A DNA stretch of 64,000 nt, taken from positions 1 to 64,000 of the forward strand of contig NZ_LDWR01000096.1 in the NCBI RefSeq assembly GCF_001039005.1, read 5' to 3'. The DNA is from Burkholderia cepacia. GTDB taxonomy: Bacteria > Pseudomonadota > Gammaproteobacteria > Burkholderiales > Burkholderiaceae. The position numbers were made by a program, and so were the translations under genes. Under the pieces are notes generated by a model. That model did no database searches. It was given only the letters and a program-made list of their open reading frames with translations, and was not told the DNA's origin. Position 1 is the first letter of the stretch; every line of letters starts with the position of its first letter. This document shows, in pieces, positions 11,003 to 28,232 of the stretch.

Positions 11003-11212
11003 GCGCCGTCGAGCGGTCGACGAGCCTCGAGGCCTGAAGACCGCACGCAGGATGACGGTTCGTTCGCGCGTGACGGCACGATCTTTGTCGGCCCGGATCG
11101 GGCCCTTGCTGTCCCGGATTGAGCGTCGATCGTGCGTGCGTTCGCGAACCGTGGGGCGGCGGAAGGGAAGGTCAAGTTGCCGTGCGACGGCGGCGAACCG
11201 GACGCATGCGCG

Positions 11213-13233
<2,021 letters not shown>

Positions 13234-13419
13234 GTTGGCCGCTTCATCGCGTGTGATTTTCTTTCGAGGCGATTGCCGGCCGGAGATCGACAGCGGCCGC
13301 GAAAGCAGGCCACGAAACGCCCGAGCATCCAACGCCTCCATGGCCGTCCATTCGTCGATGTACGCGCTGCAATCGGCGCGGTAACCGCTAGAATTGCGGT
13401 TTTAGCCCGGAACACGTCC

Positions 13420-14865
13420 ATGTCTTTTGCCTCGCTCGGCCTGATCGACCCCTTGCTGCGTAATGTGCAGGACCTCAATTACCAGACACCTACGCCGGTG
13501 CAGGCCAAGGCGATTCCTGCCGTGCTCGGTGGCAAGGACGTCATGGCCGCGGCACAGACCGGCACCGGCAAAACGGCGGGTTTCGCGCTTCCGCTGTTGC
13601 AACGGCTGGTGCAGCACGGCCCGGCGGTGTCCAGCAACCGCGCGCGCGTGCTGGTGCTGGTGCCCACGCGTGAACTGGCCGAACAAGTGCTGCAAAGCTT
13701 TGTCGCTTACGGCAAAGGCCTCGACTTGCGATTTCTGGCCGCCTACGGCGGTGTGAGTATCAACCCGCAGATGATGAAGTTGCGCAAAGGCGTCGATGTG
13801 CTCGTCGCGACGCCGGGCCGGTTGCTCGATCTGAATCGCCAGAACGCGGTGCAGTTCGATCAAGTCCAGACGCTGGTGCTGGACGAAGCCGACCGCATGC
13901 TGGATCTGGGCTTTGCGCGCGAGCTCGACGCCGTCTTTGCCGCGTTGCCTGCTCAGCGCCAGACGCTGCTGTTCTCGGCGACGTTTACCGACGATATCCG
14001 CGCGATGGCGGCGGGCATTCTGCGCAACCCGGTCAATATCAGCGTCAGCCCGCCCAATGTCACGGCCAGCAAGATCAAGCAGTGGGTGGTGCCGGTGGAC
14101 AAAAGGAACAAGCCCGACCTCTTCATGCACCTGGTGGCCGAGAACAAGTGGGAGCACGCGCTGGTGTTCGTCAAAACCCGCAAAGGCGTGGATTACCTGG
14201 CGGCCATGCTGGATGAAGCGGGTTATGCGGTCGACACCATCCACGGCGACAAGCCGCAACCCGCGCGCCTGCGTGCGCTGGAGCGCTTCAAGACACGCGA
14301 AGTACAGATGCTGGTCGCCACCGACGTGGCTGCGCGCGGGCTGGATATCGACGATCTGCCGCTGGTGATCAACGTCGATCTGCCGATCGTGGCGCAGGAC
14401 TATGTGCACCGTATTGGCCGTACCGGCCGCGCGGGTGCGAGCGGCGTGGCGGTGTCCCTCGTGTGTGCCGATGAAGCGCCGCAACTGGCCGCGATCGAAG
14501 CGCTGATCCGGCAATCGCTGCCCCGTGAAGAAGAGCCGGGTTTTGAAGCCGATCATCGCGTGCCGGAAACCAGTGCAACGGGCGAGATCATCAAGAAACC
14601 CAAAAAGCCCAAGAAACCGAAAGTGCCGCAGGCTGTGCCGGGCGCCAAGCAGGCACCCGGCAAGAAGCCGCACTCGCAAGGCGGCGAAAGCAAACGCAAG
14701 CCCGCGGCGCAGCGTGCTGTCGCCGCAGGTAAAGGCACGAGTTTGTCCAGTGGGAACCCGTTCAGTGTGCAAAAGCCGCGCAGTAAACCAGCTGGCAAGA
14801 CAGCGGCGGGTGCACGCAAGCCGGCTGGCAAACCCGCGGGTGGTCGAGGCAAGCGTCAGCCCTGA
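13420..14865 (+). CDS. rhlE: DEAD-box ATP-dependent RNA helicase (RhlE type)
   Basis: This 481-residue helicase has all core motifs in order: Q motif TPVQAKAIP, Walker A AQTGTGKT (45-52), PTRELAEQ, TPGRLL, DEAD in VLDEADRMLDLGF, SATF, ATDVAARGLD and HRIGRTGRAG. The last 120 or so residues are a lysine-rich, low-complexity tail (KKPKKPKKPKV and similar) that probably binds RNA. RhlE-type helicases act in ribosome assembly and RNA turnover. The ATG at 13420 begins MSFASLGL, the usual RhlE N-terminus; longer in-frame starts add unrelated residues. Confidence 0.93.
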   Translation: MSFASLGLIDPLLRNVQDLNYQTPTPVQAKAIPAVLGGKDVMAAAQTGTGKTAGFALPLLQRLVQHGPAVSSNRARVLVLVPTRELAEQVLQSFVAYGKGLDLRFLAAYGGVSINPQMMKLRKGVDVLVATPGRLLDLNRQNAVQFDQVQTLVLDEADRMLDLGFARELDAVFAALPAQRQTLLFSATFTDDIRAMAAGILRNPVNISVSPPNVTASKIKQWVVPVDKRNKPDLFMHLVAENKWEHALVFVKTRKGVDYLAAMLDEAGYAVDTIHGDKPQPARLRALERFKTREVQMLVATDVAARGLDIDDLPLVINVDLPIVAQDYVHRIGRTGRAGASGVAVSLVCADEAPQLAAIEALIRQSLPREEEPGFEADHRVPETSATGEIIKKPKKPKKPKVPQAVPGAKQAPGKKPHSQGGESKRKPAAQRAVAAGKGTSLSSGNPFSVQKPRSKPAGKTAAGARKPAGKPAGGRGKRQP

Positions 14866-15271
14866 TTCGTGGGGGATGAGTAACGCCATCGCAGTGAGCC
14901 GAAGCCTGCGTATTGGGTATCGACGATTCTGAGCTTGACAGGATGGCCGGTAAAGTTCGGCGACCGATCACCTGAGTTCCTACGGTCGACCGGCCGTTCT
15001 GCGGCGCGTTCTGTCGCTGGCCGCGGGGCGAGCGTCGATCGGTAGCCGATCGGCGAGGTTCGGCCATTTTCTGCCGGTCGAGAACGGTAGCTTCGGAGCT
15101 GCCCATAAACTCGCGGTGGCCCGGTGCTGGCGCAGAATTGAGAAATGACAACGCGTTCTCTTCGAATCTCGAAAAATCTTCACGGGATCTGGCTGGTCGA
15201 GTGCGCCAGTGATGCACCCCAAACGTCGTACTGGCGGGAACGCCTGCTGGATTCAGCACGGAATAAAGCAA
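14866..15271. other. Gap without a gene before the KAP NTPase
   Basis: About 400 bases. It contains GC-rich, partly self-complementary sequence (repeated CGGTCGACCGG/GATCGG elements around 14950-15080) but no gene. It marks the shift from normal chromosomal composition to the less GC-rich block that follows. Confidence 0.4.
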
Positions 15272-17008
15272 ATGACGATCGAACAATCTAAAACGCAGTT
15301 GATCTCGCTCATCGACAACGCCGACCTAAAAGTCTTCGCGCTGATAGGCGCATGGGGTACCGGCAAAACCCACCTCTGGAACGAAATTCGCAAAGAGTCG
15401 CAGGACCCGATTGTCGAAGGCGCGCGCTACGTGTCCCTCTTTGGCTTGAAAGACATCAATCAGCTCAAGCTCAAGGTGGTCCAAAGCGCACTCCCAGTAG
15501 GCGGAGAAAGCAGCTCGTTGACAGAAGGTCTGGTGAAGACTTGGAAGGCCAGCGTCGACGCCTTGAAGAAAGTCCACGAGGGATTTTCGGCGCTCGACGA
15601 GCTTGCGCTGGTAGCAGTTCCTGTCGCCTTGCGCAACCGATTCGTAGTCGTCGACGACATCGAGCGCAAGCACGCATCGTTGTCAGTTGACGAGGTTCTG
15701 GGCTTCGTCGACGAATACTCTCAGAATTTTGGTACGCGATTCCTCTTGATTCTCAACTCGGACCAGTTCTCCTCGTCTACCGACAGCGCGCTCTGGGCGG
15801 CGTTCCGAGAGAAGGTGGTCGAAGAAGAACTTCGTTTCACGCCGACACCTGGGGAGGCGTTTGACATCGCGGTTCCGAGCTCGAATTGCCCTTACCGCGC
15901 GATGGCCAGGACTGCGGTGGACGCGTGCGGGATCACCAATATCCGGGTCATCCGTCAGGCTTATCGTCTTGTGGTTCGGCTCCTCGGTGAGACTGGGGAC
16001 ATGCCTCTCGCCATACAGGCACGAACTGTTCCCTCGATTGTGCTCATTTCTGCTCTTGCAAACAAAGCCATCAAGGACGGGCCGACTCTGGAGTATGTCG
16101 CAGGCTACAACCGAGGTTCTAGCGACTTTATAACGCGCTACCTCGCTCAGGAAGGCGATGCGTCAAAGGAGAAAGCCGAGGACGCAACGCCGGCCGCATG
16201 GAAAGTTCTGCTGTCAAAGCTCGGGATTAATTCTTCGGACGAATTTGAAGAGCGGGTCGTCGCCTTCGTTTGCGACGGAAGGCACGACGCAAAGGCGATT
16301 GAGGCGATCGTCCAAGGCTACCAACACAACGAGAATCGCACCGAATCTAGGAATCTCGCGTATGCATTCTCTGAACGTTTCAATTGGGACGTCACAGCCT
16401 GCGACGACGATCTCGTAGCTGATGCGGTCAAGCTCATCACCAGAGTCGCCGACCTTGACGCCTACACTGTCACAGCGCTAGGAAAACAGATGGTCGATCT
16501 TCCTGGCGGTGCCAAACTTGAAGAAAATTTGATTGATGGTTGGTTGGCTCACTTCGCGACCATCGCCGACAAAACCGAATTCGGGGAATCACCGTTCCAT
16601 CAGCCGCTACACCCCAAACTTAAGGCAGCAATCGACAATGCGCGCGATGCTCGAATTCACAGTGCGACCGTCGTCGATGCCATCAAGTACCTTCTTGAGA
16701 ACAGCGGTTGGGGCCATCGGGAAGTAGCGACGATGAGAGCCGCTACGATCGACGATTTCGAGACTGCGATGCGGACGTTGAAAGGTCGTGATTTCAAGCT
16801 TTTTGTACTTAAAGGTTTGGACATTCTCGAACAGAATCAAATGTACGAGAACCACTTCGGCCAAGCTGGGATGAATTTCTTGGAAGCATGTCGGCGCATC
16901 GTCAGAGCCGAGAAAGAGAACCGATTCGGACGATTGTTGCGGATGTTGTTCGCAGAGAGCAAAGTTCCAGCGCTTTTGGCCGAGGGCGAAATTGAAACCA
17001 AGCCGTAG
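15272..17008 (+). CDS. KAP-type P-loop NTPase, putative defence protein
   Basis: This 578-residue protein has Walker A GAWGTGKT (26-33) right at the N-terminus and Walker B VVVDDIE (125-131), followed by LLILNSDQF, which resembles a sensor region. The long C-terminal half is helical with no recognised domain. This resembles KAP-family and related STAND-like NTPases, many linked to phage exclusion, but no membrane helices are visible, so the assignment is tentative. It has no operon partner, is less GC-rich than the flanks and lies at the edge of an IS-littered block. All this is compatible with a transferred defence gene but does not prove it. Confidence 0.7.
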   Translation: MTIEQSKTQLISLIDNADLKVFALIGAWGTGKTHLWNEIRKESQDPIVEGARYVSLFGLKDINQLKLKVVQSALPVGGESSSLTEGLVKTWKASVDALKKVHEGFSALDELALVAVPVALRNRFVVVDDIERKHASLSVDEVLGFVDEYSQNFGTRFLLILNSDQFSSSTDSALWAAFREKVVEEELRFTPTPGEAFDIAVPSSNCPYRAMARTAVDACGITNIRVIRQAYRLVVRLLGETGDMPLAIQARTVPSIVLISALANKAIKDGPTLEYVAGYNRGSSDFITRYLAQEGDASKEKAEDATPAAWKVLLSKLGINSSDEFEERVVAFVCDGRHDAKAIEAIVQGYQHNENRTESRNLAYAFSERFNWDVTACDDDLVADAVKLITRVADLDAYTVTALGKQMVDLPGGAKLEENLIDGWLAHFATIADKTEFGESPFHQPLHPKLKAAIDNARDARIHSATVVDAIKYLLENSGWGHREVATMRAATIDDFETAMRTLKGRDFKLFVLKGLDILEQNQMYENHFGQAGMNFLEACRRIVRAEKENRFGRLLRMLFAESKVPALLAEGEIETKP

Positions 17009-17294
17009 GTATCGACAGCGGTCGACTTCAATGCAGCGGTACCAGGGCGACTGTCCCCGGATCTCCAAGGGACGCCAACCTCCATCGAGAGCACGGGCAT
17101 GCGGCGACATCGCCTTCGTTACTGACTGTACGAGCGTCAGCTTCTGGGCACCCAAACCCGTACCGCCGATGTCGCGTATGGGTCGCAAAGAGTCCTTCGC
17201 GTGGCTCCACAACGGCCACTCTGTGTCGCGCGTGGCTGTTTTAAGACATCGCCGAACGGCATGATAACGAGATGCCGTCTTATCACGATAGTGT

Positions 17295-17525
17295 GATTAC
17301 CCATTCAAACTCGGGTTCCGCGGAACGCGTAACCGCGACTGCCTGCGGTGCGAGGGCGTCCTGGGTGAGTTGACATCTGTCTTCGCAACGCCGGGACCGG
17401 TGACGACTTTATTGCGCGACACTCAAGCCCATGAATTTGCGAAAGTATCCCGTTTCCCAGCCGATGCCGACCGGCGAAGTGACACTTTTACTTCGCAAAC
17501 GGTGGCGATTTTATTTTGGTCTACG
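17295..17525 (+). repeat. 231-bp direct repeat, left copy, with transposase-site-like motifs
   Basis: This stretch aligns end to end with 25146-25376, also 231 bases. The first 45 bases (GATTACCCATTCAAACTCGG onward) and the last 50 (CCGGCGAAGTGACA to TCTACG) match best. Inside are four TGACA/TGACRAYTTTAT-like motifs at 17372, 17401, 17480 and 17503. Arrays of that kind are typical of one end of Tn7/Tn5053-like or IS21-like elements. No transposase gene is beside it. Confidence 0.7.
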
Positions 17526-17799
17526 AGAGATGGCGATCGAATTCGCCGACCCAGTTGTTCAGTTCATCAGGCAGTTCTGCCTGTGCTAAACGCTTGCCGT
17601 TACCTCGTGACCGGGGTACGGACGGCGTCGGAGACGGTGTGTTGTTCATGAGCTTCTCCGGTCGACCGGAATGGCCGATCGGGGAGGCTTGCTCCGATTA
17701 TGCGAAGACGTTTCGGGTGCCGGCCGGCCCTGACCGGCACGCCACGATCACCGCAGAACTCAACCCGTCGCGAACTGGGCATAACCGGGAACTGTGCCT

Positions 17800-17835
17800 A
17801 ATCAAAAATGTGCGAAGCTTCGCATATTTTTGATT
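17800..17835. repeat. 36-bp near-perfect palindrome
   Basis: The arms AATCAAAAATGTGCGAAG and CTTCGCATATTTTTGATT meet at AAGCTT with no loop and one G/T mismatch. The outer T-run could make it a bidirectional terminator; it could also be a dimer-binding site or an element end. Confidence 0.65.
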
Positions 17836-17911
17836 CCGGCCAGACCTCAGGCAGGCGCCGAAGGAATCGGCACGATTCGCGCGATTCAATCTCGCCATCG
17901 CCTTCGAAAAT

Positions 17912-17998
17912 GACAACGAGCAGCATCCCCATAGTTCGCTGAAATATCGCTCGCCACGCGAGTTCCGGCGAAGGGTCGAATCAGCGACTCGAGTGTGA
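17912..17998 (+). pseudogene. C-terminal tail of an IS3-family OrfB transposase
   Basis: An in-frame stretch reads DNEQHPHSSLKYRSPREF and ends at a TGA at 17996. This is the conserved C-terminal signature of IS3-family OrfB integrases (N-x-x-R/H-P-H-S-S-L-x-Y-x-S/T-P). Only about 28 codons remain; the catalytic DDE region is absent. It dates an old IS insertion next to the module. Confidence 0.75.
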
Positions 17999-18512
17999 CG
18001 CGGTGTGCGGAGGTATGGGGTAAATCCAGCCGCGCGGGGGCTGGCCTCCCGCAAATTTCAGTGCGTCCGTTCCATGAACGTAAGCGCCGGGCGGGCGATG
18101 TTGTAGATGAAGTTGCAATTCAGATAGCGCTCGATTGAATAATTTCAATTTTATTGATTATTGTAATTCCGAATGTACCTGACACCCGGAGCGGATGCGC
18201 GCAAGAATCTGGATGAATAACTGACAACTTTATCAGTGTGTCCGCCTCCTCTTCTGTTCTACCATCGATTCTATTGCCCGTCATGTATCGAGCAGCGGAC
18301 TTGCTGCAACCCGCTGATTCGGGCATCAGCCTATCTCCGAAGATTCTCCACACAACACCGCTCATTAAAGTCATACGCGGCTATAAGCAATGCGTTGGTG
18401 CCGCACCAACGGCGGATCGCCGCAGCCGCCGACAACAGGCGGGCGGCAAGAATCGGCAGTTTGCTAAGAATCACAATATTGCTTCGATTTATTAAATTTC
18501 GAGGAGACCAAC

Positions 18513-21500
18513 ATGACTGTCAGTAGTCGAGCGTCGAAAATTCGCGCTGAGCATCGCGCTACCCGGCAGCGCCGCAAAGAGATGATCGCGGCGCTCTATC
18601 CGTCCGCAAGAACCTTGAGCCTGACGCTGGCCGATCCGATCGGCCAGTCGGAAGCCAGCGAAGCCGCGATAGCGCGCCTCCCGCGCACGCTTACATTTGT
18701 GACCCCCGATCATGCGGATGTGACGAGAGATCATCTGTTTGTTGGGGCGTTACCGGTTCTGAGCGCAAACAGCAAATGGGACGAGGATTTCGAGGAACTC
18801 AACTTCGAAGCGCCCGATGGCGAAACGGTGATCAGGGGCCACTTGCGCCTGACCCGTGAGCGGACACAGGGGTTCGGTGTGGTGGACGTCGAGGGCCATT
18901 CGTTCGCCGTCGAATACGCGGTGAAGCCGCAGACCTATCGCCTCAAATTGGCCAAGGGTGCTGCCTACGTCGCCGGCACGAGCATTGCTCCCGATATTCG
19001 GTGGGACGTCGAGTCGGAGCGCTGGAGGACGGCTCAATGGCCGAAAGAGTACTCGCTCGAGTTCACATATGGCATCACCAAGGAGGAGATCGTCGAAGGA
19101 GAGCCAGTCTTCGAGTTCGTCACCCGCTTCAAGGATCTGACAACGGGCCATACATGGGAGCCGGAGGTCGGCACGTACGCCGGTTTCCTAAACCGTGACC
19201 GCTATCTGAACTTCGTTCCGTCCAACGCGTCGGAAGTGCCAAATTCGGGTCACGTCGGCGGAAATCTCTTCCCCTACAAGCTCAAGCTGAAGCTGAGCGA
19301 GTTCGCCGACACGATGGTCGGCGGCATACTGACGGAAAAACCTGATCTAAGCGGCACTGTATATGGCGTGGAAGGCGTCTGGACGTCGAGCAACATTGCA
19401 GGCCTGTACTGCCTGACCGGCGAGGGCTATGCGCCAAACATGCTGGTCTCCGTGCACGACGGGCGACTGCATGTCGGAACCACGGCCGTTCCTGACGCAG
19501 TAATCGACGGTAACGTGCTCCGCTGGCGCAATCTCGCGCCTGAGCTTTGCGCGGCCTCCGGCCTGCCGGAGAGCGGGCACCTCACCTTTTCCTCGGACGG
19601 CGACGAAATTGTCGATTCGTCAATGGACATTGCCGGAGCTCGCGTTCACCCGGACATCGTTTCGGTGATGACGCATTCCCTGAAGGTGCCGGACTCGCTG
19701 CGTACAGCGCTTGGCAAGGTTGCCGCCGTGAAAGACACCGCGCACACAGTGCAGGATCTCATTCGCATGAGTCAATTCGTGCGTGATTCGAATGGGCAGT
19801 ACTACGACCTGTTTCAGCAGCAGTCGATGGAGGATTTCTACGAAATACTTCAGTACTACATGGATGACAAGGATTGCAAGCAATTCTTCAATCCGAATCC
19901 AAAGCCGCTTCCTCCATCTCTGATCGGCATATCGCAAACGCCGGGAACGCGCGGAGGGAACCCGCCGCAGTTCTATCGCAAGCTTAGCGTCGCCTACACG
20001 TGCGGAACCCTGGCGGAATGGAGCACCGATCCGGCGGCCAGAACCCTCAACGGCAGGCGCGCGAACGCCTGGCTGACCAATGAAAGCGGCGTCAGCGACG
20101 TCATGCAGGCCCAGGCGCCATTGCTTTACGCGCGTCGCTACCAGGAGAAGTGGACCGACCTCAGCTGGTTCGTCCAGGATCAGATCGACAACGCCGCTAC
20201 TTATGCACCTCGGATCGATGCGAAGGTCGCCGAATGGCTTACGGAAGCCAGGGATAACTTTGCCGGTACTACGGAGGAGCTGAACAAGCTTCTCGCGCAG
20301 ATACGCGAGATCGGCGAGAAGGCAAAGGCGACCAAATCGTATTGGGCTTTTGTCATGTATGTGTACACATCGCGTCCGCCCTATTTGAATATGCTGCAGG
20401 CGGTCGTGTTCGGTGGAGCGGAAGTCGACGGCTCCGAGTTCACGCAGCGCGTGCAGAGAACAGTGGCGCTCCTGAACGTTCTCGATACCTCGAGCTACTT
20501 CGCATCGCAATATTCGTACATGCTGCAGCTTTTCCAGGTCGCGACGCTGCTGCCCCAGTTGATTTCCTACGACGGAGATATAAAGGACTTCAATTTCGCA
20601 TTGAAACAGATCGTCGACAAGTTCGTCGACGAATACATCAAGAGCCCAGACCCGAAGATGCGGGAGGCGGCCGAGGAGGTGCGCAAGCATGGCGCTCAGG
20701 CCACAGTCGACCAACTGCTCGACGCCATGCGGGTAGCCGCTGCAACGTCGGCGGGCCTCTTCCAATGGGCGACCTTTGCAGCGAGATACGAATCGGTGGT
20801 CGGCAAAGTGCTGTCCGCGCTCCCAATGCTCGTCGCACGCGTGGTGCTGGTCGGCGCGGCCGGACTGCTGATCAGCCTGTTCGTGCAAGGCACGGTCAAT
20901 TGGTCCGATCTGACCGCGGCGGAGCAGGCTCAGATCATCGCCGCCAGCGTCGGATTCACCGCGCAGATCGTCCTGATGCTCGCCGTGCGCGGCATTGCAC
21001 TCGGCCGCGTGTTCGCGGTCGAGCAGGGGCTCTGGGGAAGAATGAGGGCATTCTTCTCCCCGCAACTGCTCACGCACAGCAGCCTGGAATCGGCCTCCGG
21101 GTTCAAGGCCTGGCTCTTTAGCAACGGCGCGCTCGAGAGGGAACTCGACGGCCTCGCAATGCGGGCACTCTTCGCGGAGTCCGCTGCCGAGGGCGCTGCG
21201 CTTCTCAGCCGCGCGAACAGGATCGCCACGCTTCAGAGGATTTTCGGCCGGAATCTCAACGAGTTCATCGCCACGCGGTTGGGCGCGGTGCTGGCTACGG
21301 TCGGCATCGTCATGTCGGCTATCGCGCTCGCCGAAGGCGGCGAGTCACTCGAAGTCGCGGCGAACGCGTTGTTCCTGGCAGCATCGATCCTGGAGTTCAT
21401 CGCGACCGCCGGGGCGTGGGCCTGCGGGGCCTTCGGCGTGGCGACGCTAGGGGGCGTATCGGTCGGAACGCTCTTCGCCGTGGTGTCGGTCATCGGCGTC

Positions 21501-22484
21501 ATCGCCTTGCTCACCGCCGCGGTGCTGATCGCGATCCAGTTGTTCCGATCAAAACCTTCGCCCGTCGAACAATTCGCCAAGAACAGGGCGGGTGTGTATT
21601 ACATGCGTTACGAGACGGACATCGATTACTTCCAGGTCTACCAGCCGATTGGCCAAATGCAGCGCTCCGGCGTTGCCCTTAAGCCGAATGGCGACGCAAG
21701 CAAGTCGCTCTATATCGGGGGCGATGGAAAGCTCTCGCAGCAGCGGTTCGACGGCACCGGACATTGCGCGTTCTATCTGAGCGTCGATCAGGACGGCCGC
21801 GCGCAGTTTGGCGCTCCCGTGGTCGGCAGCGACGGCAAGAAGAATTTTTTCGTGCTCGGGGTCGATAAGGATGGCCGTCTCGCGGCCATCCCAGCGCCTG
21901 AGAGCGCCGCAACGGACAAGCATCTTCAATGGCGGGCCGAGATCCTTGGTGACGCGCAGTACGATACGGTCAACGACGCCAAGTATCTGAAGTCGGCGCC
22001 ATTCAGGTTCTACAGCGAGTCGTTGGCCAGCAACGGACAGGAAAAGTGGTACTTGAGCACGGACAACGCGGGTGGATGGACGCTGACCCGCGATACGGGT
22101 ACTACGCTGGTGGTCGAGATGGTGTCGATCGCGCCTCAGCTTCTGAGCATGACCGATATCAGTTGGTCTACTTACCAGCACGACCAGCGGCAGAAGCCAT
22201 CGCTCGGCGTGATCGGCAGCGCGCCGCTCGCCTGGAGTCTCTCGCCAGGGCTTCCGGCGAACGTGCAATTCGACACGAGCACTGGGGTCGTATCGATGGA
22301 GACCGGCAAGGACATTCCGATTTTCGCGAAAAAGGTCTTCAAGCTGACTGCCAGCAACATGGTTGGCTCCGCCGAGACGAGCTTCTCGATCGAGGTCCTC
22401 CCGAGTGTTGCTGGCACGCTGGTATCCGCTTTCTTCGGACGTGCTACTGAACAGGAAGTGAGCGTCCCGCAAGCAATTGGCTGA
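18513..22484 (+). CDS. Giant multi-domain membrane protein, unknown function (module gene A)
   Basis: This 1323-residue protein starts at an ATG after GAGGAG and has no signal peptide. Residues 1-400 are beta-rich, with repeated VEGVWTSSN / GLYCLTGEGYAP-type lipocalin- or lectin-like strands. Residues 400-760 are helical. Hydrophobic segments that can span a membrane lie at about 770-790, 806-830, 923-943 and 949-1012 (four to five helices). Residues 1040-1210 are beta-rich again (FYLSVDQDGRAQFG, KWYLSTDNAGGWTLTRD, beta-trefoil-like). Residues 1238-1310 form a putative Ig domain (He_PIG type: PLAWSLSPGLPANVQFDTST, NMVGSAETSFSIEVL). The layout, with sugar-binding-like ends around a hydrophobic core, would fit a pore-forming or surface-binding effector, which is inference. 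Gene B follows 93 bases later on the same strand. Confidence 0.75.
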   Translation: MTVSSRASKIRAEHRATRQRRKEMIAALYPSARTLSLTLADPIGQSEASEAAIARLPRTLTFVTPDHADVTRDHLFVGALPVLSANSKWDEDFEELNFEAPDGETVIRGHLRLTRERTQGFGVVDVEGHSFAVEYAVKPQTYRLKLAKGAAYVAGTSIAPDIRWDVESERWRTAQWPKEYSLEFTYGITKEEIVEGEPVFEFVTRFKDLTTGHTWEPEVGTYAGFLNRDRYLNFVPSNASEVPNSGHVGGNLFPYKLKLKLSEFADTMVGGILTEKPDLSGTVYGVEGVWTSSNIAGLYCLTGEGYAPNMLVSVHDGRLHVGTTAVPDAVIDGNVLRWRNLAPELCAASGLPESGHLTFSSDGDEIVDSSMDIAGARVHPDIVSVMTHSLKVPDSLRTALGKVAAVKDTAHTVQDLIRMSQFVRDSNGQYYDLFQQQSMEDFYEILQYYMDDKDCKQFFNPNPKPLPPSLIGISQTPGTRGGNPPQFYRKLSVAYTCGTLAEWSTDPAARTLNGRRANAWLTNESGVSDVMQAQAPLLYARRYQEKWTDLSWFVQDQIDNAATYAPRIDAKVAEWLTEARDNFAGTTEELNKLLAQIREIGEKAKATKSYWAFVMYVYTSRPPYLNMLQAVVFGGAEVDGSEFTQRVQRTVALLNVLDTSSYFASQYSYMLQLFQVATLLPQLISYDGDIKDFNFALKQIVDKFVDEYIKSPDPKMREAAEEVRKHGAQATVDQLLDAMRVAAATSAGLFQWATFAARYESVVGKVLSALPMLVARVVLVGAAGLLISLFVQGTVNWSDLTAAEQAQIIAASVGFTAQIVLMLAVRGIALGRVFAVEQGLWGRMRAFFSPQLLTHSSLESASGFKAWLFSNGALERELDGLAMRALFAESAAEGAALLSRANRIATLQRIFGRNLNEFIATRLGAVLATVGIVMSAIALAEGGESLEVAANALFLAASILEFIATAGAWACGAFGVATLGGVSVGTLFAVVSVIGVIALLTAAVLIAIQLFRSKPSPVEQFAKNRAGVYYMRYETDIDYFQVYQPIGQMQRSGVALKPNGDASKSLYIGGDGKLSQQRFDGTGHCAFYLSVDQDGRAQFGAPVVGSDGKKNFFVLGVDKDGRLAAIPAPESAATDKHLQWRAEILGDAQYDTVNDAKYLKSAPFRFYSESLASNGQEKWYLSTDNAGGWTLTRDTGTTLVVEMVSIAPQLLSMTDISWSTYQHDQRQKPSLGVIGSAPLAWSLSPGLPANVQFDTSTGVVSMETGKDIPIFAKKVFKLTASNMVGSAETSFSIEVLPSVAGTLVSAFFGRATEQEVSVPQAIG

Positions 22485-22509
22485 TTCGCCGCGATTGTCA
22501 CTACTGGAA

Positions 22510-22543
22510 GCCGAGGGCCGCAGCCAATTGGCTGGCCTTCGGC
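22510..22543 (+). repeat. Stem-loop between the two module genes
   Basis: GCCGAGGGCC pairs with GGCCTTCGGC (one mismatch) around a perfect inner palindrome AGCCAATTGGCT. No T-run follows, so it is more likely an mRNA-processing or attenuation element that sets the ratio of the two products than a full terminator. Confidence 0.5.
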
Positions 22544-22577
22544 TCGCATAACGTTCGAGCTATCAGGAAGTTCGTGT

Positions 22578-24977
22578 ATGACGACACTTGAGGGCAATTG
22601 GGCCGATGTCGGCAAGCTATCGGAAGCACTGCCTCCGGAGGGGGCCAATCCGATCGGCTCACGCGCGCGGGCCATCTACGTCAATCGCATCCAAGGCGCC
22701 ACGCCGGGAAATTATTCGCAGCTGTTCGGAACGGGGCGCTCCTTTCGATCGATTTTCTTTTCGAACTACGCTCCCGATGCCGAAGCTGGAAACCTTGCGA
22801 GTCTCGTCGGTTTCTCCGACGATTTCTGGCGGCAATTCTCGGTGGCTGCTTTGTGTCAACAGATGTACGCGGTCACGAGTTCGCTGCGGAGGCAACTGCT
22901 GATCGACGATATCGATCGCGACATCGCGGCATGGAATGCGAGCCTGCGGGCGCACGGTGCGCATTGGTATGCCTATGTTGCCGCGGTCACCGACGGTGTG
23001 ATCAAGAGCGCGCTTGCTCCGTTTTCCCGCACCGCCGTCGACATGGCGGCCGCGAGGACCGACTATATCCGCGGGCTGACCTCCGACGCATGGATCAACA
23101 TGAAGCGCACCCAGGACGCCACCGGGAATTGGCCGGATCGCGACTGGGAACTCTTCCATCATTGGATCAAACTGGTCGCGCTCGGCGCCCGCGATGCGGA
23201 AATTGACTCGACGATTTCCACGGTCGTCAGCAAGGGATTGCCGGTTCCGCAGCAGTTGATGGCCGGAAATTGGCTGGGCTGGAGCAACTGGATGCTGCAA
23301 AACCTCGGCGGTGCCGATCTGTCCGACGCCACGGGCGCGATGCTGAAGGAAGTCTGCAACACTTATCCAGGCTCACAGTGGCCCTCCTGTATGAGGGAGG
23401 CGAACAGCTATGAATTCACGGCCAACAGTCAACCGGGATCGCGCTACCGGCATGTGCCCGGAGGCAGTTGCTTTGCGCCGGGATCGATGGTCGTCCTCGC
23501 CGACGGAACATTGAAGGCGATCGAGTCCATTCGCTCCGGCGACGAAGTCCGCACGCCGCGCGGCAAGCGAAGCGTGGTCCTGCGTGCCGCACCGATGCGT
23601 TCGGACCGGCCGCTTTTCCGGTTTGCCGGTGTCGATTTTGCGTTCACTTCGGGTCACCCGTTTCTGATTCATGCATCGAAAGCCGGCTCCAACGGTGAGT
23701 ACGCGGCCGTCAATCCGGAGCACCTGGCGGCGAGCATTCCGGGCTTCAACCAGTTCGGTATCCGCAGACTGGGGGCGGACGGCGCGCCGGATCTGATTTG
23801 TCATGCACCAGAAGGAGAGGCAGCGCTGCGCCCCGTTCAGCCGCGCGACATCGAGCCTGCGCCGCTCGAAGGTGTTGAAACGCTTTACGACCTCGTTCTG
23901 GAGCCGGACGGCGATGACCGATCCGAGTACTTCATCGGCGACCGGACGACCCAGCTTCTCGTATCCTCCGAGCTGCCGCGCTTTTTGAGCGCGCCTGCGA
24001 CAACGGCCGTCATGCTGCACTTGTTGAAGGAATGCGCCGGCCCCGCGCTTTCCATTCTTCACCGCGTTCCCGATACCGCAGTTCACGACTTGCTCAACAT
24101 CGCACTGGACAGTATCGCTCTCGATCTGCTTCCGGTCGCGGTAGCTTCTTCGCAATCGCTTCATGTCGACAGCCGCTCTGACGTCCCGCTGCTGACGCCG
24201 GGCGTGAGCGCGAGCCTGACGAGCGCGGTGAGCGCGTTCGCAGCGCGTTTTTCGACGACGAGTACGTTGGGGTACGACCAAAGGATGGGAGCGTTCCTGG
24301 ATCTTTTTCTTTCGAAGTTCGCGCATCAATTCCATGATGCGGTTCGTCAAGGTTGGCGCCGCTTCGACTTGGCTCCCGAGGACGAAAGCGCAGTGCTTGC
24401 CGTGAGCATTCGCGGATTGGAATTCTTCGAAGCGCTCGACGTTCCACCGCTCTCTGATGCCGAATTGAGTTTGACGCTCCAATACGGGCAGCAAGCGATT
24501 GCACACACAGTGCCGGTGGACGTGCTCGCCTCCACTGCCGGTTGCCTCTACGTCGGTGACGGAGCCGCATATATCAGCGGGTGGCGTCAAGCGGCCGACA
24601 CTGCTTCATCCGCTCGATTGCGGGTCGCGCTCCGGCGTCGCTCCGACAGGAAGGATGCCGAATTCGTCGGCGTCGCGTATTCCCCGTTTCCAGGCTGTTC
24701 CGGCTTTCTCTCGACTTGCCATCCTGTCTTGGCCGGCGATGGGCGCATGGTGGGCAGAGTGACGCTCGACGTCCGTTGCCTCGCCGAGCCGGTGCGCACG
24801 AGCGAGGAAGCCGCTCGGGCAGCATGGACCAGCGCCGACGAGGCAGCGTTTGCCGCCCGGCTTGCGCAAGCGGCCGCGGCCCGCTTCGTCGAAAGGTTCA
24901 AGTTGGCGCTACTGACCTATCAGGGTAAGGCTGTGACCGCTGCCGCACGAGACTTGCGCCTGATGGCGGCCGACTAG
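22578..24977 (+). CDS. Hint-domain (hedgehog/intein-like) protein (module gene B)
   Basis: This 799-residue protein starts at an ATG after AGGAAG. Residues 1-290 are helical and unrecognised. Residues 298-470 form a Hint autoprocessing domain: nucleophile Cys298 in CFAPGSMVVLADGTLKAIES, then IRSGDEV, the TxxH motif TSGH ending at His360 (TSGHPFLI), and the last strand LYDLVLEPD near 436. There is no terminal HN-C/S/T splice junction, so it fits hedgehog-type or bacterial-intein-like cleavage rather than protein splicing. Residues 480-799 are a novel C-terminal region with a GCLYVGDGAAYISGW strand and Cys pairs (PFPGCSGFLSTCHP). In polymorphic toxins such Hint domains release the following segment; no known toxin domain is recognised here. 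Confidence 0.8.
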   Translation: MTTLEGNWADVGKLSEALPPEGANPIGSRARAIYVNRIQGATPGNYSQLFGTGRSFRSIFFSNYAPDAEAGNLASLVGFSDDFWRQFSVAALCQQMYAVTSSLRRQLLIDDIDRDIAAWNASLRAHGAHWYAYVAAVTDGVIKSALAPFSRTAVDMAAARTDYIRGLTSDAWINMKRTQDATGNWPDRDWELFHHWIKLVALGARDAEIDSTISTVVSKGLPVPQQLMAGNWLGWSNWMLQNLGGADLSDATGAMLKEVCNTYPGSQWPSCMREANSYEFTANSQPGSRYRHVPGGSCFAPGSMVVLADGTLKAIESIRSGDEVRTPRGKRSVVLRAAPMRSDRPLFRFAGVDFAFTSGHPFLIHASKAGSNGEYAAVNPEHLAASIPGFNQFGIRRLGADGAPDLICHAPEGEAALRPVQPRDIEPAPLEGVETLYDLVLEPDGDDRSEYFIGDRTTQLLVSSELPRFLSAPATTAVMLHLLKECAGPALSILHRVPDTAVHDLLNIALDSIALDLLPVAVASSQSLHVDSRSDVPLLTPGVSASLTSAVSAFAARFSTTSTLGYDQRMGAFLDLFLSKFAHQFHDAVRQGWRRFDLAPEDESAVLAVSIRGLEFFEALDVPPLSDAELSLTLQYGQQAIAHTVPVDVLASTAGCLYVGDGAAYISGWRQAADTASSARLRVALRRRSDRKDAEFVGVAYSPFPGCSGFLSTCHPVLAGDGRMVGRVTLDVRCLAEPVRTSEEAARAAWTSADEAAFAARLAQAAAARFVERFKLALLTYQGKAVTAAARDLRLMAAD

Positions 24978-25145
24978 CCGCGACGGCCACAGCGAGGCCG
25001 TTCCAGCCGAAGCACGGCCTTGAAGTTGATGTTGTGCTGCGCACTGCCGTAGAGCAAATTAATTCTTTCACTCCAGAATTCTTGTCGAACAAGGCATCCG
25101 GGCCCTGAGTTGACGATTTTATTGACATTGTTACCACTACGGCAC

Positions 25146-25376
25146 GATTACTCATTCAAACTCGGGTTCCGCAGAACGTGTGACCGCGACCGACGGCGCC
25201 GCAACGACGTCGCGAGGGAGTTGACACCGGTTTTCGCGGCGCCGCGCTCGGTGACAACTTTAATTCGCGGCGGATTAATCCTTGAGTTCACAAGGGTTCG
25301 CAGCTCTTGGGCGACTGCGAACCGGCGAAGTGACATATTTACTTCGCAAACGGTGACAACTTTATTTTGTTCTACG
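25146..25376 (+). repeat. 231-bp direct repeat, right copy
   Basis: Same length and orientation as 17295-17525. TGAC motifs sit at 25222, 25252, 25331 and 25354; the last three occupy exactly the offsets found in the left copy. Together the repeats bracket about 7.6 kb holding the two-gene module. Direct rather than inverted orientation means they are not simply the two ends of one element. Confidence 0.7.
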
Positions 25377-25593
25377 GTAGTGGACGAAGCGTTCCGGCGG
25401 TAACGTCCTGATTTCTAGACCGATTCCCGGCGCACCCTACGGCCGGGCGAAGCACTGAGTTCAGACAGTACGCTTTCTGCCTCAAGCTCAGTCACCTATG
25501 CTGGAAAAGCAGTGTCGCGGGACATCCGGGGTCGACTACGTCCGACTGCTCTCGGCCACAATCGGTCAGTCGCGACGCTCACGGAAACGAGCA

Positions 25594-25841
25594 CTATTCC
25601 TCAAGGAGATGCAAGATCCTGTTGAGCAAATGAAGCTGCTGCTCATACAACACTGAAGCTGTCCCGCCCCGAGCATGGCCAGATGACTTCAATTCGATTC
25701 GACGTATCGACTCCGCTGTTAGGCTGCGTATCGCATCGATACGGTTGTACGCTTTCGCCAGACTGCGATCGGCATTGAGATACCATTCGTAGACCACATC
25801 TACTTCCTTACGCAACTCAGTCAGGTTCAAACTGTCGTAGC
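25594..25841 (-). pseudogene. C-terminal fragment of an unknown helical protein
   Basis: An open frame on the minus strand reads LRKEVDVVYEWYLNADRSLA, then IDAIRSLTAESIRR, and ends LYEQQLHLLNRILHLLEE before a TAG at 25594. The composition is that of a real helical or coiled-coil protein. Its upstream part is replaced, in another frame, by IS30 sequence. It is best read as the surviving 3' end of a gene cut by the IS; the frame can be read through to 25995 but that hybrid N-terminus is out-of-frame IS sequence. Confidence 0.5.
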
Positions 25842-25952
25842 TCAGCGTAAGAGCAGTCGGGCAATCTGCGCAAGCGTGTCCCCCTTGCGCCACCGCTCCC
25901 ACATCAGTGCCTTTTGAGTCTCGGTGTAGTAGATCCTGCGCCGCTGTTTCAT
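25842..25952 (-). pseudogene. IS30-family transposase, N-terminal remnant
   Basis: From an ATG at 25952 with GGAGG upstream, 36 codons read MKQRRRIYYTETQKALMWER, then WRKGDTLAQIARLLLR, then TGA. This is the conserved N-terminal HTH of an IS30-family transposase. The rest (about 300 residues, including the DDE catalytic domain) is missing. The adjacent end sequence at 25996-26012 matches window bases 1-17. Confidence 0.75.
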
Positions 25953-25984
25953 TTGCAACACCTCCACTGCTTACGCAGCGTCTA

Positions 25985-26012
25985 GTGTGTTGCATCGACC
26001 GGTTGAATCCGC
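25985..26012. mobile_element. Terminal repeat of the truncated IS30 element
   Basis: The sequence up to TCGACCGGTTGAATCCG lies about 45 bases upstream of the truncated IS30 transposase start, where the terminal inverted repeat of that family sits. The same 17 bases, in the same orientation, form the left edge of the window, so two related copies bracket bases 18-25984. Confidence 0.6.
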
Positions 26013-26278
26013 CGTCGGTAACGGACGATCCTGAAATCAGTCACCAATGACGCTCTTCATTTACGTTCACGCGTCACGCGGCATGACGACTGTTCGGCAG
26101 TTGCCGGGCAGGCTTGCAGGAAGTCGACGCGCATGCCTCACTGCGCTCGGGTATGCTGCGTCAAAATCGGCCCATCGAACCAATCGCATGCGGCTCCGAT
26201 AGAGCGGGCAACAGCTCGATCGCATCGCAACCATTCGCCGCACCACGCCGCATTCATGTCCCGGAAAGGAGGCCGCAC

Positions 26279-26716
26279 ATGGCAGAACTGGACAACCTGC
26301 TTCACGAGCGAATCGCAGCGCTGAGCGAAGCCGGCGATGCATTGGCAGAAGACGAGAACTACGAAGGCGCACTCGCGAAATACTGGGAGGCATTCGACCT
26401 GCTTCCCGAACCTAAGACCGTTTGGGAGGCGGGAACCTGGCTGCTCGCAGCGATCGGCGACGCGAATTTCCATCAAGGCGACTACGCGGCCGGCCGCGAC
26501 AATCTTGGCCATGCGATGCATTTCCCCGACGCGATCGGCAATCCGTTTCTTCACCTGAGGCTCGGGCAGTGCCAACTCGAACTCGGCAATCTCGATCGCG
26601 CTGCAGACGAACTGATGCGCGCCTACATGGGCGGCGGCCCGGAGCTATTCGAGGACGAGCACGGCAAGTACCTGCGATTCCTTGCCACGCGTGCGGAAGG
26701 AATCAAGACGCCCTGA
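26279..26716 (+). CDS. Tetratricopeptide-repeat protein
   Basis: This 145-residue protein has a strong AAAGGAGG ribosome site six bases before the ATG, which fixes the start. It contains two to three TPR-like helix pairs: AGDALAEDENYEGALAKYWEAFDLLP, then GDANFHQGDYAAGRDNLGHAM, then LGQCQLELGNLDRAADELMRAY. It has no signal peptide and probably mediates protein-protein contacts in the cytosol. It is similar to small TPR proteins often found near polymorphic-toxin or immunity genes, but here it lies outside the IS boundary. The function is unknown. Confidence 0.8.
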   Translation: MAELDNLLHERIAALSEAGDALAEDENYEGALAKYWEAFDLLPEPKTVWEAGTWLLAAIGDANFHQGDYAAGRDNLGHAMHFPDAIGNPFLHLRLGQCQLELGNLDRAADELMRAYMGGGPELFEDEHGKYLRFLATRAEGIKTP

Positions 26717-26810
26717 CCCGAATGTATTAGCGTTTCCCCCAATGTGGAAACCACCGCGCCAGCCGATGTTGCAGAGAGAGAAGATGTAAATAATTGATCC
26801 GAGGCCAATT

Positions 26811-28232
26811 ATGACGACATCTGAAACAAACGGACCGAACGCGGCATTGCCTGAAACGGCCGAGGCGGCCGAGGCGGCAGCGGCATCCGACGACGCATGC
26901 AGCGCACCGTCGATCCTGCTGGTCGACGACGAGCCGAGCGTGCTGTCGGCGCTCAAGCGCGTGTTCCGGCCCGCACGTTACGACATCCTGACGGCCGCCA
27001 GCGGCGAGGCCGCGCTGGACATACTGGCGTCGACCGAAGTCGACCTGATCGTGTCCGACATGCGGATGCCGCACATGAGCGGGGCCGAATTTCTGGCTCG
27101 CGCACGGGCCATGTACCCGGACACGATGCGCATCCTGCTGACCGGCTATGCGGAGATCGCGTCGGTCGTGCAGGCCGTCAACGAAGGCGGCGTGTATCGC
27201 TATCTGAACAAGCCGTGGGACGATCACGATCTGCTGCTGACCATCGAACAGGCGCTGGAGCAGCGGCGCTTGCGCCGCGAAGCCGCCCGGCTGGCCGCGC
27301 TGACGGAGGCACAGAACGAAGCGCTGCGCCGTTTCAACACGGAACTCGAAACACAGGTGCGCGCGCGTACCGAGGAACTCGGCCAGACCGTGATGTTCCT
27401 CGAAGCGGCGCAACGCGACCTGAAAAGCAGCTTCACGGCGATGGTCCAGGTGTGCGCGAGCATGATCGAAATGCGGTGCGGGACCGCTAGCGGACACGCG
27501 ATGCGGGTCGGCGAGATCGCGCGCCGGCTCGCGTTGTCGTCGGGGATGAGCAGTCTGCACGCGCAGGACGTCTATTACGCGGGGCTGCTGCACGGCATCG
27601 GCAAGTTGTCGTTGCCCGACGAATTGCTGCACAAGCCGACCACGCGGATGACGACGGACGAACACCGCCTGTTCCAGGAGCATCCGCTGCGCGCGCAGAT
27701 GGTGCTGACGCCTGTCGCGCAATTGCACAAGGTCGCATCGATCGTGCTGCACCAGTACGAGCGCTTCAACGGGCGCGGCACGCCGGACGGGCTGGCCGGC
27801 GACGCGATCCCGCTCGGCTCGCGGATCGTTGCGATCGCACGCGATTTCGAAGGGCTGCGCAATGGCGAAATCGGTGCGCCGCATTCGCTCGAGCAGGCTC
27901 TCGATGCATTGAAGTCGCAGGCCGGCGTGCGTTACGACCCGCAGATTGTCGAGCGTTGCATCGAGCTGATGCGGGACCCGGCGAGTCTCGGCATCGCGGC
28001 GTCCGTCGCGGAGATCAAGTCCGCGCAGCTGCGCGAAGGGATGCAACTGGCCGACGACCTGCGCACGCATCGCGGCGTGCTGCTGATGACGAAGGGCAGC
28101 GTGATGTCGGCGCACCAGATCGAGCTCGTGCGCCGCTTCGAGACGCGGGAAGGGGCGCCGTTCGATATCCTCGTTCTGGCCGGCTCGACCGCCTCGAAGC
28201 AGGCGCACAACGCGAGCGCGCCGCCCGGCTGA
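26811..28232 (+). CDS. Response regulator with degenerate HD-GYP-type domain
   Basis: This 473-residue protein has a receiver domain at about 35-150 (acidic pair Asp39-Asp40, phosphoacceptor Asp83 in VSDMRMPH, Lys134 in NKPWDDHD), a coiled coil at 150-200, and an HD-GYP-like domain at about 205-400. The metal-binding HD pair is HG (His261-Gly262 in LLHGIGKLSLPDELLHKP), and the GYP motif reads GTP (323-325, FNGRGTPDG). Loss of the catalytic Asp suggests it no longer cleaves c-di-GMP and instead binds a nucleotide or a partner. It is followed 52 bases later by its likely cognate MHYT histidine kinase. GAGG lies seven bases before the ATG. Confidence 0.9.
   Translation: MTTSETNGPNAALPETAEAAEAAAASDDACSAPSILLVDDEPSVLSALKRVFRPARYDILTAASGEAALDILASTEVDLIVSDMRMPHMSGAEFLARARAMYPDTMRILLTGYAEIASVVQAVNEGGVYRYLNKPWDDHDLLLTIEQALEQRRLRREAARLAALTEAQNEALRRFNTELETQVRARTEELGQTVMFLEAAQRDLKSSFTAMVQVCASMIEMRCGTASGHAMRVGEIARRLALSSGMSSLHAQDVYYAGLLHGIGKLSLPDELLHKPTTRMTTDEHRLFQEHPLRAQMVLTPVAQLHKVASIVLHQYERFNGRGTPDGLAGDAIPLGSRIVAIARDFEGLRNGEIGAPHSLEQALDALKSQAGVRYDPQIVERCIELMRDPASLGIAASVAEIKSAQLREGMQLADDLRTHRGVLLMTKGSVMSAHQIELVRRFETREGAPFDILVLAGSTASKQAHNASAPPG

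Follow-up and report, generated by a model that had tools for sequence, protein, structure and literature searches.

What is the function of two large neighboring genes that recur side by side in bacteria of several phyla, one of them carrying a domain of a known self-cleaving type? The question is raised by a 64,000-nucleotide stretch of Burkholderia cepacia DNA (contig NZ_LDWR01000096.1, positions 1 to 64,000; here called the window), in which gene A, encoding 1323 residues, is followed by gene B, encoding 799 residues with a Hint domain in the middle. An earlier note, made from the sequence alone, had suggested a mobile cassette for a self-processing toxin or surface effector delivered together with a pore-like partner. 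The pair is best explained as an autonomous two-gene module spread by horizontal transfer; as a description, a new two-gene family that makes use of a known self-cleaving domain suits it best. For its function we favor, with a probability of roughly 0.35, the explanation that self-cleavage of B by its Hint domain would control the membrane protein A in bacterial conflict. This value allows for strong dependence between the steps of the explanation; a product of independent steps would be lower.

A and B are real genes. Both open reading frames (ORFs) were found with the positions and lengths given in the earlier note, on the same strand and with B after A, and each has a plausible ribosome-binding sequence (GAGGAG upstream of 18513, AGGAAG upstream of 22578). 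Cys298 and T357-S-G-H360 of B can be read directly in the sequence. In Pfam, the window's B alone matched only Hint-type profiles, reaching Vint (PF14623) at E 9.2e-6 (26 bits, with a cut-off of 27). Judged from profiles, the Hint domain is more than a chance resemblance and is secure once homologues are included: Hom_end_hint and Vint matched all 11 scanned B proteins, the window's among them, at E<=0.1 (best E 2.6e-10 and 5.5e-8), and the B family profile matched PI-SceI (E 1.7e-10) and a PRP8 intein (E 4e-7) in the PDB. A divergent B from genome G229 matched Vint at only E 0.0083, and in NCBIfam an intein model alone matched, in 6 of 13 B proteins. The domain is intein/Vint-like; the earlier label "hedgehog-type" was too specific, because Vint and intein profiles match best.

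Conservation of the active site in B homologues, which the earlier note had proposed as a way to refute its idea, was largely borne out. Six residues, Cys298, Asp309, His360, Asp438, Leu439, and Glu465, do not vary among the 13 aligned B proteins, of which the window's is one; the threonine of TxxH is not strict (10 of 13). The Cys is also present in the divergent G229 protein, as is a THPF motif. Conservation in B is highest at the two ends of the Hint domain, with mean pairwise identities of 0.47 and 0.43, compared to 0.21-0.33 elsewhere. Within the aligned stretch 430-500, only two proteins, both from Methylococcaceae, have a His-Asn (near 471-472, with Ile next); the other 11 lack it. Since the family has no conserved C-terminal His-Asn, splicing is not expected and N-terminal cleavage is. 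We therefore rejected the reading of B as an intein; it resembles inteins such as PI-SceI and PRP8 in its Hint profile, its Cys1, and its block-B His, but differs in lacking these splicing residues and in that no Hint-free complete B was met in the genome and plasmid searches, only a piece of B in Pseudomonas asturiensis.

Hint chemistry, with a thioester and cleavage before the Cys, is established for inteins, Hedgehog, and bacterial intein-like domains. Given this chemistry and the conserved active site, B probably cleaves itself before Cys298. We imagine that B would form a thioester at the bond between residue 297 and Cys298 and would then break there, either through hydrolysis or because a small nucleophile attacks, so that the N-terminal domain would be released from the Hint domain and the C-terminal part. 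One can also envision a Hint domain that does not cleave and is structural or regulatory only, with A and B forming a stable membrane complex. The threonine missing from 3 of 13 proteins would fit this, as would the invariant Glu465 near the end of the Hint domain, where the C-terminal residues of an intein would be; however, invariance of Cys298, His360, and Asp309 in all 13 proteins and the strong conservation of both Hint ends make it quite unlikely.

As the earlier note had it, the regions around the Hint domain contain no recognized domain. Pfam gave no match outside Hint in the 11 scanned proteins, the N-terminal region found nothing in the PDB better than E 0.064, and the C-terminal region had no PDB match at E<=5 and no Pfam match. 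The region after Hint is the least conserved part of B (mean identity 0.21-0.26), yet it aligns throughout; it can be aligned across 13 B proteins in one alignment and 12 in another, is not swapped, and contains no toxin family in Pfam. The resulting layout, an N-terminal domain, Hint, and a fast-evolving C-terminal region without conserved splicing residues, is that of Hedgehog/Hog proteins, for which N-terminal cleavage would likewise be expected. A Hedgehog-like ligation could then operate, in which a lipid or small molecule attacks the thioester, the C-terminal region picks the nucleophile, and the modified N-terminal domain goes to the membrane with A, a partner that does look like a membrane protein. 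Given a C-terminal region that resembles nothing in Pfam or the PDB, we regard such ligation as improbable; moreover, B has no Pfam match outside its Hint, so no Hedge domain, and its sequence is nearer to Vint and inteins.

The best conserved stretch of A, residues 906-1012 (mean pairwise identity 0.45), coincides with hydrophobic sequence. Hydrophobic 19-residue peaks near 773-791, 918-941, and 983-1008 (window numbering) recur in 12 of 12 profiled A proteins, and one near 946-980 recurs in 11, upholding by hydropathy the membrane-spanning core suggested earlier. No N-terminal hydrophobic peak was seen in A or B by hydropathy scan, used without a signal-peptide predictor, in agreement with the lack of signal peptides claimed before, and neither protein has a trafficking domain in Pfam or NCBIfam. 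Because neither protein shows a signal peptide, we place A in the membrane of the producing cell; given its hydrophobic segments and the lack of a signal-like start, we lean modestly toward A acting there. For the secretion or surface delivery suggested in the earlier note we found no sequence evidence.

Other features of A are less distinct. The earlier note had predicted an immunoglobulin-like (Ig) domain at the C terminus. A match to He_PIG (putative Ig) at E<=0.1 (best 1.4e-5) is present in 9 of the 12 A proteins, and the window's own A had no Pfam match to this or any other family, though the corresponding region aligns with its homologues. Lectin-like ends, also predicted, gained weak support at one end: a designed beta-trefoil matched A profile positions 1071-1110 at a whole-sequence E of 0.0011, with no single stretch passing alone, and the N-terminal profile found nothing in the PDB better than E 0.16. 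A "beta propeller lectin" match at 776-841 (E 0.0067) was rejected, as it falls in a hydrophobic stretch. Among the 12 proteins, Pfam also gave DUF2391 in one (E 0.0038) and three further families in one A each (E 0.063-0.082). PDB searches with the window's A alone reached E 0.058 at best, and profile searches with four separate regions of A and B gave weak matches only, again with a best E of 0.058; PHROGs matched neither of the window's proteins. By these comparisons, nothing in A or B beyond the Hint and He_PIG domains matches Pfam or the PDB convincingly; leaving the weak beta-trefoil aside, no sequence relative in the PDB is better than E 0.058.

Co-occurrence of A and B in other genomes, the second point on which the earlier idea could have fallen, was found at 15 of 16 loci with an A core. 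At these 15 loci, the window's included, B follows A on the same strand, in Pseudomonadota, Cyanobacteriota, Actinomycetota, and SAR324, with a spacing from a 4-nucleotide overlap (Albimonas, Planobispora) to 209 nucleotides (Gloeothece). Plasmid searches yielded A then B in Gloeothece verrucosa PCC 7822 and Pantoea sp. At-9b. Genome searches and one contig scan added Caballeronia humi (genome G167), G429, Microbulbifer taiwanensis, Pseudomonas guryensis, a further two members of the Pseudomonas genus (genomes G1080 and G941), a SAR324 metagenome-assembled genome (MAG), Albimonas pacifica, two Methylococcaceae MAGs (which share 92% identity in A and 95% in B), and Planobispora takensis (Actinomycetota in NCBI), whose contig ends within B, the N terminus of B being readable from the end of A. 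SAR324 is an unplaced deltaproteobacterial clade in NCBI and its own phylum, of 52 genomes, in the collection that we searched. A divergent pair lies in G229, which is of the same genus as the window. Its A, at 825 residues, has no C-terminal region, and most of its match to the profile lies in the last hydrophobic block (E 8e-9). Its B is matched in all three parts, N (E 4e-54), Hint (E 1e-32), and C (E 5e-26). No complete A or complete B was met alone in the searches made, and the pair looks obligate.

The pair is also rare. Among 348 genomes of the P. asturiensis genus, 4 have A; so do 1 of 194 and 1 of 197 genomes of two other groups (each the center genome itself) and 3 of 299 genomes of the family. 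In the last search, 15 genomes had an A match; 12 of them, matching only the He_PIG-like end (residues 1181-1319), were all dropped from the count, and 5 of these 12 were rechecked with the profile. Complete B was present in 1/101, 2/398, 2/200, 1/52, and 2/38 genomes (center genomes counted) and in 2 plasmid records, each time linked to A; Hint-only matches in G049, G715, G464, and G370 were dropped. All these counts are lower bounds, because sampling was non-random toward known loci and single-sequence searches can miss pairs such as that of G229. Neither gene matched anything in 50,697 phage records, and viral contigs gave no match to A and matches to B through Hint only; we rejected a phage origin of the pair. 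The Hint of one viral-contig ORF of 1366 residues (L035, 3727-7824) matched the B Hint profile at E 1.4e-13, and in G049 (L002, 469-2028) a Hint lies at the end of a protein with tail-fiber-like repeats, as read by eye.

Trees of A and B were built for 14 loci; P. asturiensis and Planobispora were left outside, since they lack a complete B. In support of co-inheritance, the two trees have 8 of 11 internal splits in common, and their distances correlate with r of 0.80, a value reached by 0 of 5000 label permutations. Against taxonomy, the cyanobacterium Gloeothece groups with G429, of the window's phylum, in both trees, and in the B tree SAR324 joins the window and Microbulbifer. As a measure of selection, dN/dS in three close pairs came to 0.12, 0.27, and 0.18 (A) and to 0.21, 0.39, and 0.30 (B).

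The mobile or exchangeable nature of the cassette, proposed in the earlier note, is supported both by transposon-end-like repeats and by the variability of the site. The bracketing repeats noted before are real and direct, with 74% identity over 232 aligned positions (76% and 82% in two blocks), and within the window's genome copy 1 has no match at E<=0.001 other than copy 2. Relatives occur in 11 plasmid records for copy 1 and 27 for copy 2, all from Burkholderia or Paraburkholderia. Alignments to three plasmid loci end at one base (17525-17526 or 25376), one plasmid record matches only from 25377 onward, and many weaker relatives of copy 2 cover just its left half. A common stop base is as expected of the edge of an element. 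On a plasmid of Burkholderia anthina SO82, a relative of the repeat lies directly downstream of tniA-tniB-tniQ. Among the four annotated Burkholderia plasmid contexts viewed, tniABQ was adjacent in one and vgrG-Rhs cassettes were nearby in two; a fifth context had no annotation.

From the homology of the repeats to the sequence directly downstream of tniABQ, the pair may be the cargo of a decayed TniABQ-type (Tn7/Tn5053-like) element or of two stacked ones. Unlike typical cargo of this kind, it has no recognized tni gene beside it (none by eye among window ORFs of 12-32 kb) and is flanked by two copies of one end in direct orientation; no inverted copy was found in the window by blastn at E<=0.05. 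The site differs in all four relatives compared: window positions 11063-26716 correspond to about 1.6 kb in G008, and 14895-26628 correspond to about 11 kb in G036, with only an 81-position match (25938-26017) in between. Rfam at gathering thresholds gave no known RNA element in 14000-27000. The SO82 plasmid (L078, 4528-20225) has vgrG, DUF1795, Rhs, DUF1629, and tniABQ in a row that ends in the repeat flanking the pair, perhaps a transposon carrying an effector cassette of the type VI secretion system (T6SS); at another locus (L079), the repeat is near Rhs and vgrG.

Genes flanking the pair were compared by all-against-all blastp (E<=1e-5) of 1582 ORFs (at least 60 residues, stop to stop, both strands) from 15 loci, over flanks of 2.5-10 kb, Planobispora having no sequence after B. 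Sharing of linked flanking genes was confined to two sets of close relatives, the three Pseudomonas loci and the two Methylococcaceae loci; what else matched looks like generic families, for example LysR, ABC, and LuxR proteins. These results bear on the toxin part of the earlier suggestion. The pair does not fit polymorphic toxins, because the region after Hint is family-wide and no third gene recurs. It has in common with toxins that use intein-like domains, such as MafB and contact-dependent inhibition (CDI) systems, a bacterial Hint-type domain, a large protein, and an exchangeable island, as far as the consulted parts of the descriptions go (PMC4287609, PMC4725963), but it has no signal, no variable C-terminal toxin tip, and no recurring immunity gene, and we rejected that reading. 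Release of a C-terminal toxin is likewise not borne out, leaving from the earlier suggestion a mobile, two-component, and probably self-processing system.

An exported toxin or surface effector could still be built differently, with a pore-like A and with B freeing an effector by self-cleavage after lysis or delivery by an injection system. The hydrophobic block of A and the proximity of the transposon-end-like repeats to vgrG-Rhs effector cassettes in two of the four annotated plasmid contexts speak for it. We nevertheless consider it unlikely: neither protein has an N-terminal hydrophobic segment, no neighbor recurs beyond close relatives and generic families, the region after Hint is no swappable toxin tip, and no vgrG, Rhs, or other T6SS gene was recognized by eye among the window ORFs of 12-32 kb, the span that was read.

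Returning to A in the membrane of the producing cell, we imagine that the cut in B would determine the state of A, with B as the switch and A as the part that acts on the membrane; that cleavage controls A, suggested by the constant pairing, has about even odds. The pair would serve bacterial conflict, against phages or competitors. This role is inferred because the pair is rare, patchy, mobile, and located in a variable island, and we would give it a chance of one in two. Alternatively, A and B could be ordinary metabolic or cell surface proteins misread as a system; He_PIG domains occur in unrelated large proteins of the family too, and the pair has no known phenotype. Rarity, pairing, trees that cut across taxonomy, and the mobile context make this very improbable. 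A bolder reading, and a rather unlikely one, is that hedgehog-like autoprocessing of B, possibly with a small nucleophile joined to its N-terminal domain, triggers or targets the membrane protein encoded next to it, in a new class of conflict or defense system that crosses phyla.

Several observations weigh against the explanation of B as a self-cleaving switch for A in conflict. The Ser (2 of 13) or Ala (1 of 13) found at position 357 in place of Thr could slow the reaction, the membrane topology of A was read from hydropathy alone, and the conflict role is argued from distribution and context only. No recurring third gene, a defense or toxin gene included, stands beside the pair among the flanking ORFs of the 15 loci. 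PADLOC 2023 assigned A to no defense family (the window's A reached E 0.014 at best, that of Gloeothece had no match), and there B matched only a homing-endonuclease model over the Hint domain (E 0.049 for the window, 4.1e-7 for Gloeothece). Three of 11 splits differ between the trees, over Caballeronia, G229, SAR324, and the Pseudomonas group, and the split joining the window and Microbulbifer, present in both, is supported at 1.000 for A and 0.117 for B. Finally, the 16th A-core locus, of P. asturiensis, has a piece of B only. Its A core (808 residues, L034 9519-12328, profile positions 356-1130, no Pfam family) has directly upstream a 128-residue ORF that corresponds to the end of the B profile (E 6e-10); read by eye, the upstream DNA has more of the C-terminal region of B in another frame. 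No Hint or B N terminus rose above noise in the 22-kb locus (best E 0.24 and 0.95), which has the look of a copy that is reduced or decaying. The A core there adjoins asparagine-synthase-like and HPr-kinase-like genes, named by eye.

Two further groups of known proteins come close to B. Eukaryotic VWA-Vint proteins have Hint motifs A and B with slight likeness only to motif F, and are thought to be processed inside the cell, according to the part of the source consulted (PMC2362128). B is like them in that the Vint profile matches 11 of 11 scanned proteins. They carry VWA and Vwaint upstream of a C-terminal Hint (PMC2362128, same part), whereas B is bacterial and has another N-terminal domain (no VWA by Pfam in the 11 scanned proteins), a further C-terminal region, and a membrane protein partner. 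The same portion of that paper describes C-terminal Hint-like proteins of Stigmatella, Myxococcus, Photorhabdus, and other bacteria, some with signal peptides (PMC2362128). These resemble B, by description rather than by sequence, in having a bacterial Hint that is neither intein nor bacterial intein-like (BIL) domain, and differ in its C-terminal place, in two conserved upstream cysteines, and in the signal peptides; the Hint of B is mid-protein. The literature searches made turned up no paper describing the A-B pair by its title or the start of its abstract.

To our knowledge, many bacterial proteins contain Hint domains that lack splicing residues, and outside toxin systems the purpose of these domains is mostly open. 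The pair is a clean case, a rare operon that crosses phyla, with an invariant catalytic Cys and His and a membrane-like partner, and offers a small, testable system for asking what bacterial Hint self-cleavage does.

Features of the locus are collected in Table 1. The stem-loop between the genes, already noticed in the earlier note, is real: the 131-nucleotide stretch that was folded gives -48.8 kcal/mol (z -2.59), with 2 of 200 shuffles equally good. It is not a typical terminator, because no T-run follows it.

Table 1. Coordinates of the A-B pair, its parts, and the flanking repeats in the window
Feature	Position	Strand	Description or basis
Direct repeat, copy 1	17280..17536	+	Transposon-end-like; homologous edge at 17525
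Gene A, 1323 residues	18513..22484	+	Open frame; N-terminal region, helical-looking core, hydrophobic segments, C-terminal region with He_PIG-like end
A 40-385, N-terminal region	18630..19667	+	Beta-rich by eye; best PDB match E 0.16
A 395-760, core common to short A of P. asturiensis	19695..20792	+	Alignment; helical by eye
A 773-791, first conserved hydrophobic segment	20829..20885	+	Hydropathy
A 918-1008, hydrophobic block	21264..21536	+	Hydropathy
A 1015-1300, C-terminal region and He_PIG-like domain	21555..22412	+	No counterpart in shorter G229 homologue
Stem-loop in 93-nucleotide A-B gap	~22509..22544	+	Folding energy; no T-run
Gene B, 799 residues, Hint-containing partner	22578..24977	+	Open frame, Pfam, PDB profile matches
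B 1-297, N-terminal domain that Hint cleavage would free	22578..23468	+	Alignments
B 298-468, Hint domain	23469..23981	+	Cys298, Asp309, His360, YDL block 437-439, invariant Glu465
B 469-799, C-terminal region, family-wide, fast-evolving	23982..24974	+	Alignment; piece like its end beside P. asturiensis A core
Direct repeat, copy 2	25131..25387	+	Transposon-end-like; homologous edge at 25376

Around the pair in the window, a gene for a 599-residue KAP/P-loop NTPase-like protein (15209-17008, +) lies just left of repeat copy 1 and matches the PADLOC candidate defense family PDC-S49 (E 2.7e-19). At the right edge of the variable region is a small TPR-like protein (26195-26713, +), with relatives in 13 plasmid records (Rhizobium, Burkholderia, Hymenobacter, and others), called "hypothetical protein" where annotated. 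Between it and repeat copy 2, an ORF of 133 residues (25594-25995, -) had no family match above cut-off and may not be a gene.

Elsewhere, two Pseudomonas pairs (L027, L049) lie downstream of a large LuxR/MalT-like regulator and DUF1302/DUF1329-like genes, named by eye. On the Gloeothece plasmid (L022, 3207-19825), the pair has two-component regulators on one side and, on the other, a type III-B CRISPR locus beginning about 3.4 kb past B. PIN-domain and ParE toxin genes, which are frequent on mobile islands, were also seen near the pair (L028, 16116-16544; L030, 2210-2539).

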